Shown here piece after piece: positions 3,136-56,094 of a stretch of 64,000 bases of DNA. Each line of letters opens with the position of its first letter. The stretch's first letter is position 1. A program made the translations under genes and the position numbers. This stretch comes from Brachyspira hampsonii. GTDB lineage: Bacteria; Spirochaetota; Brachyspiria; Brachyspirales; Brachyspiraceae. The notes under the pieces were generated by a model. That model did not search any database. It was not told the origin of the DNA and saw only the letters and a list, made by a program, of their open reading frames with translations. The stretch spans positions 2,914,001-2,978,000 of the forward strand of contig NZ_CP019914.1 in assembly GCF_002214805.1 (NCBI RefSeq), read 5' to 3'.

Positions 3136-4908
3136 ATGTATACCTATGAAGAATATATCAATAAAGTTATAAATAAAGAATTACCAGTATGTCAAGCTGC
3201 TTTTTTATCTGTAAAAAGGCATTTGGACGATATTGAAAAATCAAAAAATAATGATTATCCTTTTTATTTTGATGAGAACGAAGCTAAACGTCCTATCATG
3301 TTCATACAATCTTTAGTACATACAAAAGGAGAATGGGCTAATCATAATATTATATTAGAGTCTTGGGAACAGTTTATAATAGCAAGTATATTCGGATGGA
3401 GAAGAAAAGAAAATAAACTCAGACGTTACAAAAAAGCATACGTTCAGGTAAGCCGAAAAAATGGAAAAACTACTTTTGCATCTGGAATTGGTAATTATTG
3501 TTTTTTCTGCGATAGTCCTGCAGAGGCTGGTGTCGAAATATATTATATAGCTACGAAAAAAGATCAAGCGAAAATTGCATGGAGTGAAAGCGAAAGGCAA
3601 ATAAGAAAAGCAAAAGCTCTTAATAAAGAAGCGATTACATATAAACAAACTTCTACGATTACAAAGAAAAAAGATACTGCCTCAAAATCCAAACCATTAG
3701 GACAGGACAGCAACACTGAAGACGGATTAAATCCGCATTTAGTGATAGTAGATGAATATCATGCACATCCTGATAATGAATTATTAAATGTTCTTGAATC
3801 TGGAATGGGAGCTAGAAGGCAGCCGCTTGTATTTATAATTACTACTGCTGGTTTTGATAAATCGGCAGTATGTTTTTCTGAATATGAATATGCAAAGCAA
3901 ATATTAAAAGGTTCATTAAATAATGATGAATATTTTACAATAATATATGAGCCTGACGACATCAATGATATTTGGGTATTTATGTCAGAATATAAAGAAA
4001 AATTGACAAAAAAAGAGGATATTTCAAAGCAGGAAGAATTAATAAATAAAATTATTTTTCAAGCTAATCCTAACATAAATATTTCTGTAAAAGACAGTTA
4101 CCTAAAATCTAGGCTTTTGGAAGGACTAGATAAGCCTATTCAGCGAACTGATATACTTACAAAAAACTTGAATGTTTGGACACAGGCAAGCGAGGTTTGG
4201 ATATCTTCTGACAGATGGATTAAATCTTATTTACATCAAAATATAAATATAAATGAATTAAAAGGCAGGAAAGCCTGCATAGGTTTGGATTTAGCAACTA
4301 CAAGAGATATAGCAGCTTATGTTTTATGTTTTGATTCTATTGATAATGGTCCGTATATACTTTTGCCTCGCTTCTTTATGCCTAAAGAAAATATAAGGCA
4401 GCGTTCTAAAGAGGACAGAGTACCTTATGAATTATGGGCTTCGCAAGGTTTAATTACTTTAACAAGCGGTGATATAATAGATTTTGATGTAATAGAATCT
4501 TCAATCTTAAATGATGCGAAAGATTTTGAAATTATAGAAATAGGCTATGACCCTTGGAAAGCTATTGAAATAGTCACTCATTTGAAAAAAGAAGGGTTAA
4601 AAATGACAGATATAAGACAATCTTTTGCAGTCGGCGGTTTATCTGAAGGAACTTCTTTATTTGAAAAAACTATAGATGAACGTAAACTTTTACATGGTAA
4701 TAATGCTGTTCTTAATTGGATGATAAGCTGCTGTGAAGTAAGAACAGACGGCAGGGATAATTATCTTCCTACTAAGCCTGATAGGCAAAGATCACGTAAA
4801 AGAATTGATGGTGTTGTAGCCTCCATTATGGCTCTTCATAGAGTGATTAAAAATCATTTTGAAGATACTAAAAGTATTTATGAAACTGAAGGCGTTTTTA
4901 TATTATAA
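3136..4908 (+). CDS. Phage terminase large subunit
   Basis: A 590-residue packaging ATPase and nuclease. The ATPase half shows Walker A SRKNGKT at residues 106-112 and Walker B LVIVDEYHAH at 202-211. The nuclease half begins around GLDLATTRDIAA at 383-394, with a first acidic metal ligand in LDLA. WDPWK-like GYDPWKA and DGVVASIMALHRV lie near the C-terminus, as in Terminase_1/HK97-type enzymes. Length is normal and the frame is intact. It is transcribed with terS, away from portal. Confidence 0.93.
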   Translation: MYTYEEYINKVINKELPVCQAAFLSVKRHLDDIEKSKNNDYPFYFDENEAKRPIMFIQSLVHTKGEWANHNIILESWEQFIIASIFGWRRKENKLRRYKKAYVQVSRKNGKTTFASGIGNYCFFCDSPAEAGVEIYYIATKKDQAKIAWSESERQIRKAKALNKEAITYKQTSTITKKKDTASKSKPLGQDSNTEDGLNPHLVIVDEYHAHPDNELLNVLESGMGARRQPLVFIITTAGFDKSAVCFSEYEYAKQILKGSLNNDEYFTIIYEPDDINDIWVFMSEYKEKLTKKEDISKQEELINKIIFQANPNINISVKDSYLKSRLLEGLDKPIQRTDILTKNLNVWTQASEVWISSDRWIKSYLHQNININELKGRKACIGLDLATTRDIAAYVLCFDSIDNGPYILLPRFFMPKENIRQRSKEDRVPYELWASQGLITLTSGDIIDFDVIESSILNDAKDFEIIEIGYDPWKAIEIVTHLKKEGLKMTDIRQSFAVGGLSEGTSLFEKTIDERKLLHGNNAVLNWMISCCEVRTDGRDNYLPTKPDRQRSRKRIDGVVASIMALHRVIKNHFEDTKSIYETEGVFIL

Positions 4909-36932: not shown

Positions 36933-37679
36933 ATGAAAACCGTATCCATTATCATATTTATAAGCATTTGCTGTAATATTATATATTCATTTACTCAAAA
37001 TGAAAATGATTTAATTATGGCTGCCGAAAAATCTGATATTATGTCAATTAGAAATATACTTAATAAAAAAGATGTTAATATTAATGTTCAAGACAGATAC
37101 GGTGTTACTCCTTTGATGTATGCTGTATTTAATAAAGATATTTATATATTAGAATTATTATTAAAGAACAATGCCAATCCTAATATGCAAAATGACAGCG
37201 GTAAAACTGCTTTAATATATGCAAGCACCAGTTGTGATTTTGATATTATACAGATGCTTATATGGTATAAGGCGGATGTTAATCTTAGAGATAATTATAA
37301 ATCTACAGCTTTGATGTATGCTTCAAGCAGAGATGCAAATATAATAAAATTACTTGCCGATTCGGGTGCTGATATTAATGCCCAGAACTTAGACGGAAAG
37401 ACTGCTTTGATATATAATATTTTAAATAAGGCTGATTCTGACATAGTGAAAACTTTTATTTCTTTAGGGGCTGATGTAAATATTCAGGATATTCATGGCT
37501 ACACTGCTTTAATGTATGCTGCTATATTGGATTATAGAAATTTAGTTGAAATATTAATAGAAAATGGGGCAGATGTAAATAAAAGAAATAATTATAATAA
37601 AACAGCTTTAACTATGTCAGAAGAAAATAAAAATTATAAAATGGCTGAAATTTTAATTAAATACGGTGCGGTAAGATAA
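36933..37679 (+). CDS. Exported ankyrin-repeat protein
   Basis: 248 residues with a signal peptide (MKTVSIIIFISICCNIIYSF) and about six ankyrin repeats that are closer to consensus than in its neighbours (YGVTPLMYAVFNKDIYILEL, GKTALIYASTSCDFDIIQML, GYTALMYAAILDYRNLVEIL). It ends two bases before the convergent ankyrin gene on the other strand. It likely mediates protein binding outside the cytoplasm. Confidence 0.9.
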   Translation: MKTVSIIIFISICCNIIYSFTQNENDLIMAAEKSDIMSIRNILNKKDVNINVQDRYGVTPLMYAVFNKDIYILELLLKNNANPNMQNDSGKTALIYASTSCDFDIIQMLIWYKADVNLRDNYKSTALMYASSRDANIIKLLADSGADINAQNLDGKTALIYNILNKADSDIVKTFISLGADVNIQDIHGYTALMYAAILDYRNLVEILIENGADVNKRNNYNKTALTMSEENKNYKMAEILIKYGAVR

Positions 37680-42719: not shown

Positions 42720-44096
42720 ATGGAAGAGATAAAAAAGTATTGGAATGAATTTTTAGATATTATAAGTGAAGATGATGAGTTCGCTGGTGTTGCTCTGCTT
42801 AAAGGCAGTATAATTGTATCTGATAATGAAAATAAAGCTGATATAGTGTGTTCTGGAGATTTTACGGCATCGCATATAAAAAAAGATTTTTTAGCAAGAA
42901 TAAAAGATTTTTTTGAAGATAGGCTAGGGCATAATATAGATATAGATGTCAAAGTAGATGCAGAACTTGTTAATAAGTATCTGCATGAAACTGAAGAATC
43001 TTCTGAAAATAAGGAAAATAATTCTAATAAAAATATATTAGAATCCTCAAAAAAAGAAAATTCTTATAGTAAAAGCAATTTAAACGATTATTTTAGGTTT
43101 GATAATTTCATACAGGGAAATAATAACAGATATGTATTTGAAGCCGCCAAATATGTATCATCTAATCCGGGTAAAGAATATAATCCTCTCTATATATATG
43201 GAAGTGTTGGTATAGGAAAGACTCATTTACTTCAGGCTATAGGTAATAGTTATATGCAGAATAATCCTAATGCTAAAGTTCTTTATATAGACGGAAGCGG
43301 TTTTAGAGATGAATATGTATCAGGACTTCAGAATAAAAAACCTGAAGTTTTTAAGAAAAGATATAAATCTTTGGATATGCTTTTGCTTGATGATTTACAG
43401 CTTCTTGAAAGTGCTCAGGAGACATCTAAAGAACTATTTGAAATATTTCAGGCTTTAGATAATTCATCAAAACAGATGGTATTTGTAAGTGATAAGCCTC
43501 CTAAAGAGTTAAGAAATATAGAAGCAAGATTAAAAAATAGATTTGAAAAGAGTCTTATTCTTTCAATAGAGCCTCCTCAATATGAAACTAGACTTGCCAT
43601 AATAGAAAGAAAATTATTTGATTTGCATACAAGTATAGATGAAGAAGTTATGAAATATATGGCAGAAAATATTACAACAGATGTTAGGAAGATTGAAGGA
43701 GCAATAAGGGCTTATTTATCAGTAAGAGATTTAATGAAAATAACTCCTAATATAGAGCAATGTGATAAATTGGATATATTTAAAGATTATTTTACCAATA
43801 AGCCTAAATTAAAGAATGCTACAATAAAAGAGATAAAAAAAATAGTTGCTGATTATTATGGCATAGAGATTTCATCTTTTGAAAGTAAAGACAGAACAAA
43901 ATTTATATCTAAAGCTAGGCATGTAGCCATATATTTAGCTTGCGAATATTCTAAAAAGTCTGTTACGGAAATAGGACTCGATTTTAATAGAGATCATGCC
44001 TCTGTAATACATGCCAGAGATAAAGTTAAAGATGAATTAAAAACAGGTTCGCATTTATATTCAGAAATTAATGATATAATAGCCGGAATATCATAA
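42720..44096 (+). CDS. dnaA: DnaA-family replication initiator
   Basis: 458 residues. Domain I is at 1-~85, with a Ser/Asn/Lys linker to ~120. The AAA+ domain carries Walker A GSVGIGKT at 161-168 (YIYGSVGIGKTHLLQAIGN), Walker B LLLDDL at 221-226, arginine region IEARLKNRFEKS, and VRKIEGAIRAY. Domain IV has ARHVAIYLACEYSKKSVTEI and the DnaA-box helix DHASVIHA at 425-432. It binds DnaA boxes and opens oriC. No dnaN, recF, gyrB or DnaA-box cluster is nearby, so whether this is the main DnaA or a paralogue is open. The start ATG at 42720 has AAAGATAGAAAG before it. Confidence 0.85.
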   Translation: MEEIKKYWNEFLDIISEDDEFAGVALLKGSIIVSDNENKADIVCSGDFTASHIKKDFLARIKDFFEDRLGHNIDIDVKVDAELVNKYLHETEESSENKENNSNKNILESSKKENSYSKSNLNDYFRFDNFIQGNNNRYVFEAAKYVSSNPGKEYNPLYIYGSVGIGKTHLLQAIGNSYMQNNPNAKVLYIDGSGFRDEYVSGLQNKKPEVFKKRYKSLDMLLLDDLQLLESAQETSKELFEIFQALDNSSKQMVFVSDKPPKELRNIEARLKNRFEKSLILSIEPPQYETRLAIIERKLFDLHTSIDEEVMKYMAENITTDVRKIEGAIRAYLSVRDLMKITPNIEQCDKLDIFKDYFTNKPKLKNATIKEIKKIVADYYGIEISSFESKDRTKFISKARHVAIYLACEYSKKSVTEIGLDFNRDHASVIHARDKVKDELKTGSHLYSEINDIIAGIS

Positions 44097-55711: not shown

Positions 55712-55733
55712 ATTTATTATAATAAAAACTAAC

Positions 55734-55777
55734 AAAGCATAAAGTGCATATTTAAATCCCGCCCTTTATGCTTTTTT
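55734..55777 (+). terminator. Intrinsic terminator after the TPR gene
   Basis: AAAGCATAAAG (55734-55744) pairs with CTTTATGCTTT (55764-55774) and is followed by T's. Confidence 0.8.
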
Positions 55778-55835
55778 ATTTTTTATTCAATATAAAAGTG
55801 TTTATTAATTTTTTTACTTAGTTTGTAAAAGCATT

Positions 55836-55989
55836 CCCGCCCAAATTTTTATTGTATTTTTATTTTTTACACCGCACGTTAAACGGTTCTTTATTAATAA
55901 TTTAAATTACAATTATTTATTATATTAAATTTATAATTTTTTTCACCGTGCGGTAATTGCCGCAATAAATTTTTAAAAAATTGGGCGGG
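55836..55989. repeat. Nested inverted-repeat element in a 380-base gene-free gap
   Basis: Outer arms start CCCGCCCAA... (55836-55854) and end ...TTGGGCGGG (55963-55989), pairing over about 19 positions with an 8-base insertion in the right arm. Inside them ACCGCACG (55871-55878) pairs perfectly with CGTGCGGT (55947-55954). These GC-rich arms stand out in very AT-rich DNA. No coding frame fits. It looks like an extragenic palindromic or MITE-like element or a structured RNA. Confidence 0.6.
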
Positions 55990-56094
55990 CAATTAAAATA
56001 ACAGTTAGAAGTTAAAAAGCAATATAAAGCAGAAATGACATAAAATAATAGAAAGTCTATAGGGTGGGAATAGTAGTGTGAATATTTTTCATAA

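Follow-up and report, generated by a model that had tools for sequence, protein, structure and literature searches.

The window analysed here is a stretch of 64,000 nucleotides that covers positions 2,914,001–2,978,000 of a single-contig Brachyspira genome of 3,189,639 bases. Between two convergent genes it holds a group of GC-rich inverted repeats, and the question is what these repeats are and what keeps them in place. An earlier note on this DNA had described two nested pairs without a coding frame and had proposed a REP/BIME or MITE-like family, or a structured RNA. Both pairs are present (Table 1) and the list of open reading frames (≥60 aa) is empty at the site, so a coding role was dropped. 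The nested arrangement is real as well, but the unit had been drawn too small and its outermost pair of motifs was missed: the 154 bp at 55836–55989 are the core of a three-module unit of 311 bp at 55758–56068.

Table 1. The array and its flanking genes (positions in the window).
Feature	Position	Strand	Description
Module A	55758–55842		Motif 1 CCCGCCC 55758–55764, spacer, motif 2 CCCGCCC 55836–55842; centre distance 78 bp
Module B	55873–55952		Motif 3 CGCACG 55873–55878, 68-nt spacer, motif 4 CGTGCG 55947–55952; centre distance 74 bp
Module A', reverse complement of A	55983–56068		Motif 5 GGGCGGG 55983–55989, spacer, motif 6 GGGTGGG 56062–56068; centre distance 79 bp
Whole array by family profile	55742–56070	+	One A-B-A' unit, canonical orientation; 158.9 bits
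TPR protein gene, 917 aa	52958–55711	+	Stops just ahead of the array
Phos_pyr_kin-family kinase gene, 269 aa	56095–56904	-	Convergent neighbour of the array

GGGCGGG occurs three times in the window where 0.21 would be expected, and CACCGTGCGGT (up to two mismatches) three times where 0.39 would be expected; neither count was reached in any of 100 shuffles. One of the three CACCGTGCGGT matches lies outside the element, at 37662. Phage and plasmid collections searched with the repeat gave no match and an origin from either was therefore dropped. Relatives of the TPR gene were found at 13 loci, 12 of them in Brachyspira (65–93% identity) and one in an uncultured Spirochaetia (37%). At one locus (L192, in genome G005) the TPR gene carries one in-frame TAA.

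Module Layout and Spacing

Among the sampled loci of the window's genome, the commonest distances between motif centres follow the series CCCRCCC-77.5-CCCRCCC-36.5-CGCACG-74-CGTGCG-36.5-GGGYGGG-77.5-GGGYGGG. In the sampled loci the spacings mostly keep within 2 bp, and the inner pair spans 79–81 bp in 103 of 109 copies. This pattern indicates a unit of three modules of ~115 bp, namely A, B and A' (A reversed). Where units stand in tandem they are mostly 343–351 bp apart, with 39–44 or 47–49 bp from the last GGGYGGG to the next CCCRCCC, which gives arrays of the order A-B-A'-A-B-A' with a period of ~345 bp. The motifs are 6–7 bp long and their palindromic partners lie from ~39 to 305 bp apart. 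The unit has a polarity, as the middle base is mostly G in the C-rich motifs and T in the G-rich motifs; mixed polarities of B occur in 6 of the 90 arrays that contain this module.

A family profile found 103 arrays in the sampled loci of the same genome. Their starts and ends are grouped at the three module borders, and starts precede the first motif of a module, almost never its second. Short gaps between modules, which make up 27–31% of the period, hold 83 of the 103 starts and 79 of the ends, counts for which the zones were chosen after viewing the data and which may be affected by the tendency of local alignments to end at a motif. The spacing is not rigid, since the length of the long spacers differs between orthologues in 20 of 48 cases (19 of these by 1–2 bp) and helical phase is thus not absolute.

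A Family Restricted to Brachyspira

A dispersed intergenic family had been predicted, and a search of the genome for further copies bore this out. With a 281-bp query at least 87 matches at E ≤ 10 were obtained when 40 of 265 candidates were scored. The module B pattern CGCACG N50-80 CGTGCG occurs 118 times and its backwards version not once. A single copy lacking conservation, the outcome that would have spoken against a family, did not occur. Module B is found in 24 of 26 Brachyspira genomes with 2–147 copies each, and the controls gave none in all 26. Module A, searched as CCCRCCC-CCCRCCC, is found in 23 of 26; a reversed control is uninformative for this pattern as it reads identically backwards. 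Genomes G001 and G003 have neither module and G019 has two copies of B and no A, from which it follows that the genus can live without the family. When 392 Spirochaetota genomes were searched with tight spacing, 23 of the 26 Brachyspira genomes were positive with 22–137 copies. Outside the genus 81 of 366 genomes had 1–6 matches, in a search whose reversed control gave up to 17 in one genome, and none occurred in three genomes that belong to the same taxonomic family but to other genera. These searches show that the family is Brachyspira-specific.

Genome G009 has its own subfamily of B modules, at most 90% alike at distant sites, alongside old copies, one of which is 94% identical to the copy at 1218540 in the window's genome. 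Two arrays in G000 (L007 and L005, at ~1.409 and ~1.635 Mb) look near-identical and probably lie in duplicated segments. Four Brachyspira genome papers (PMC3532143, PMC2897892, PMC2650404, PMC3163572) do not mention the family where they deal with repeats, and it is undescribed in the literature searched, which comprised titles and abstracts and had most subscription journals outside its coverage.

Position on the Chromosome and Relative to Genes

The window contains dnaA (42816–44081, genome position 2,956,816; TIGR00362, 396 bits) and is therefore probably origin-proximal, if dnaA marks the origin as we infer. In the same genome all 100 module B copies among the matches listed lie in the half opposite dnaA (at least 100 of 118 overall), and 20-kb samples spread over the chromosome contained arrays in 7 of 20 cases, all between 0.68 and 2.04 Mb. 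For G009 and G010 the origin was set by the TPR gene and the chromosome size was rounded. On this basis 37 of 38 copies lie in the far half in G009. In G010 this holds for 22 of the 37 listed copies and for at most 33 of 48 overall, as the 11 copies outside those listed are all beyond 2.31 Mb. Thus, in two of the three genomes checked the arrays are biased to the terminus half. Confinement to the terminus as for matS would be a stronger property: the bias is strong in the window's genome and G009 and at most weaker in G010, and some copies lie near dnaA. Since the listed copies are in the far half, the array of the window is one of few on the origin side, and at ~12 kb from dnaA it does not fit a strict role at the terminus.

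The arrays prefer the space between convergent genes. Among 90 arrays, 35 had convergent, 42 co-directional and 13 divergent neighbours, where 10.7, 68.0 and 11.3 would be expected from gene pairs called by the same ORF rule (70 aa) across a 464-kb sequence sample. The bias is significant at 70 aa (p 5e-15) and likewise at 100 aa (34, 43 and 12 of 89 arrays; p 7e-12). Overlap with a called ORF of ≥70 aa occurs in 5 of the 90 arrays. Two readings of array polarity were rejected. Firstly, polarity along the chromosome as a mark linked to replication gave a best split with a Fisher p of 0.007, which was matched by 27 of 500 label shuffles. Secondly, the 39 oriented arrays between co-directional genes were split evenly, 19 with and 20 against the genes.

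Conservation of the Motifs

In 21 orthologous array pairs, 14 of 1336 motif bases (middle bases left out) were changed, compared with 439 of 2075 G/C bases in the spacers. Motif G/C bases differed at 30 of 1309 positions and those of the flanks at 214 of 1311, while whole spacers and flanks drift alike (8.7% and 8.3%). The middle base of the 7-mers is a hotspot, with 34 of 126 differing. These pairs were kept from 40 syntenic ones after those with a length difference >25 bp, identity <72% or double use had been dropped, and as each species served as reference in turn, one change may count twice. The inner motifs account for 1 change in 570 bases and the 7-mers for 13 in 766; the former share is inflated because exact inner motifs were the main basis on which loci had been chosen, and the latter is unaffected.

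An alignment of nine genomes at the window's site, retrieved via the adjoining gene and so free of selection on the inner motifs, gave a similar picture. CGCACG and CGTGCG are invariant in all nine, and 32 of 37 motif G/C columns are invariant as opposed to 9 of 41 spacer G/C columns; two of the five variable motif columns are middle bases. The motifs are thus shown to be maintained by natural selection.

Sequence Recognition or RNA Structure

Selected palindromic motifs could act through base pairing, and one alternative is that the arrays work in transcripts, with the nested hairpins serving as bidirectional terminators or as stabilisers of 3' ends. The arrays sit at the 3' ends of genes and single copies fold well: at 55836–55993 both strands fold better as RNA than shuffles (z ~ -3.4). 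An alignment of 65 copies folds at -57.9 kcal/mol compared with -3.3 for column shuffles and recovers all three nested stems, but from near-invariant columns. The canonical strand folds better than the other (-57.9 versus -49.0 kcal/mol), and unmatched middle bases are mostly G-U on it. This G-U bias was rejected as proof of RNA since the three stems share motifs and represent one asymmetry, and the pair classes match independence. A 27-nt inverted repeat (89% complementary, 13-nt gap) with T-rich sequence also lies at 55721–55787, 3' of the TPR gene, and motif 1 falls within it. The repeat resembles an intrinsic terminator, although it is absent from the output of a strict terminator scan, which lists one site, 55949–55964, and not the nested stems.

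The substitutions point away from pairing. Motifs that have no palindromic partner are about as conserved (8 of 354 bases changed) as partnered ones (5 of 412). Where motif 2 or 5 is mutated, 25 of 27 pairs are not fully paired, and among these pairs there are two double changes, one of which (CCT/AGG) may be compensated at one base. The middle bases at the A'-A junction read T-G in 46 of the 60 cases that could be oriented, a further 14 being unoriented, and the six outer pairs act as independent columns, with pair classes equal to the expectation for such columns. The top 40 covarying column pairs by mutual information among the 65 full copies do not follow the nested stems either. Motif 2, 5 or both are missing in 122 of 193 B modules, and nothing in the window reached the gathering score of an Rfam 15 family, the best match at the site having E 0.77. 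The structured RNA that had been suggested for this locus thus draws no support from compensatory change, in motifs that vary little, and we regard an action in transcripts as rather unlikely. Since unpartnered motifs are nearly equally conserved and compensation is rare, recognition of sequence is likelier than hairpin pairing. Judged by these substitution patterns, the motif sequences themselves appear to be read, most simply as duplex DNA.

Array History and the Mobile-Element Alternative

The site after the TPR gene was covered in 26 genomes. An array is present in nine (eight scored by script and G005 by its own locus), which form one clade in the TPR-protein tree (support 100/100), and none was seen in the other 17. 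In 11 of these the gap between the TPR and kinase genes was measured: nine have ~8–34 bp, one has 111 bp, and G014 has 470 bp, made up of other sequence. The gap was not obtained in the remaining six, including G009 with only 157 bp of sequence. At locus L077, past position 4278, the same intergenic site is occupied by another sequence, in which GACAAACTTAAAAATTTTTAGTATATA occurs as two direct copies. The simplest reading is that the array of the window arose by one insertion of ~350–370 bp and was then kept.

Compared with B. hampsonii, 41 of 42 testable arrays of the window's genome and 49 of 49 testable arrays of B. hampsonii have a filled counterpart in the other species; selection of the stretches inflates this share. 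Sixteen arrays differ by >100 bp between matched flanks. In six of them the difference amounts to one period or two (+337, -350, -694, +351, +334, and -343 or -687), and in three to roughly one, two or four modules (+107, +221, -461). A further site is empty in B. hampsonii (-629); the other six either are ambiguous or owe the difference to sequence beyond the array.

The family could also be a non-autonomous mobile element, a MITE or fold-back element whose motifs would be recognised in trans by a transposase. It has spread to >100 sites, a clean gain is seen at the window's site on the branch to the nine genomes, and one site is filled with 569 bp here and empty in B. hampsonii. In G009 subfamilies are partly lineage-specific: of 16 modules compared, out of 38 listed, nine resembled some other module of G009 more closely than they did the best of 15 copies drawn at random from the window's genome. 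However, the motifs are still conserved at the site common to nine genomes, and the arrays end at several module borders and have no single pair of ends. The one empty site has no clear target-site duplication, its flanks being diverged and AT-rich. Within the Y1 family, the only one searched, no transposase was detected: PF01797 (Y1/RAYT) had no hit at E 0.001 in 26 of 26 Brachyspira genomes and was found in 5 of 14 control genomes. With Y1 undetected, an IS200/IS605 or REP origin was dropped. MITEs are dispersed, non-coding and palindromic, as is the Brachyspira family, which differs from them in the missing end pair, the lack of a clear duplication at the site examined and motifs selected in place. 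Of the MITE-like proposal, therefore, dispersal stands; the expected duplication was not seen at one empty site and old copies are under selection. We consider a mobile element unlikely as an explanation.

Still less can be said for G-quadruplexes, which are very improbable here: the paired GGGYGGG of A/A' would supply four G3 runs with pyrimidine loops, and these runs are conserved with a middle base that varies mostly between C and T, but the 70-nt loop is unfavourable for such a structure and module B, which has no G3 runs, is equally conserved.

Comparison with Known Systems and a Proposed Function

The BOX elements of Streptococcus pneumoniae are modular intergenic repeats with a variable number of modules, and the arrays resemble them in these traits, by description only. 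With REPs and BIMEs of enterobacteria and pseudomonads the family shares many extragenic palindromic copies, regular spacing and alternating orientation. DNA gyrase, IHF and Pol I are bound by both of these elements (PMC2817692). Membership in this group, as had been suggested, does not hold up. REPs measure 20–40 bp (PMC3733652), with a single imperfect palindrome of that size per unit; the Brachyspira unit has modules of ~115 bp, two distinct motif types and a 345-bp period, and its genomes no detected RAYT/Y1 transposase. In E. coli, the 13-bp matS occurs in 23 copies over the 800 kb of the Ter macrodomain (PMC3330122). The arrays likewise repeat short motifs across the terminus side of the chromosome but, unlike matS, they consist of phased motifs in >100 copies, some near dnaA.

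We give roughly even odds to the reading that the phased arrays consist of putative binding sites for protein and serve to organise DNA, in a manner reminiscent of BIMEs or matS. The near-frozen motifs, their even spacing and the bias to the terminus side suggest a DNA-binding system that is undescribed in the papers searched. One or two candidate sequence-specific DNA-binding proteins would assemble on the phased sites and could wrap, bridge or mark the DNA, and arrays bound in this way may serve to organise the chromosome or to relieve supercoils where genes converge. Arrays often gain or lose one or two 345-bp periods, presumably by homologous recombination, and new sites may occasionally be seeded. 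A more specific version is possible but doubtful: a dedicated chromosome-organising system of Brachyspira, in which a putative protein recognises both motif types within phased three-module arrays that lie between convergent genes, are concentrated on the terminus side and have been acquired or lost wholesale across the genus.

High-copy repeats in bacteria are usually taken for RNA hairpins or for what parasitic elements have left behind. In this family, near-frozen motifs amid drifting spacers, with no Y1 transposase detected, make a host function directly testable. Brachyspira are gut spirochaetes, pig and poultry pathogens among them, and since the family is absent or nearly so in G001, G003 and G019, a search by presence and absence for the cognate protein is possible within the genus.
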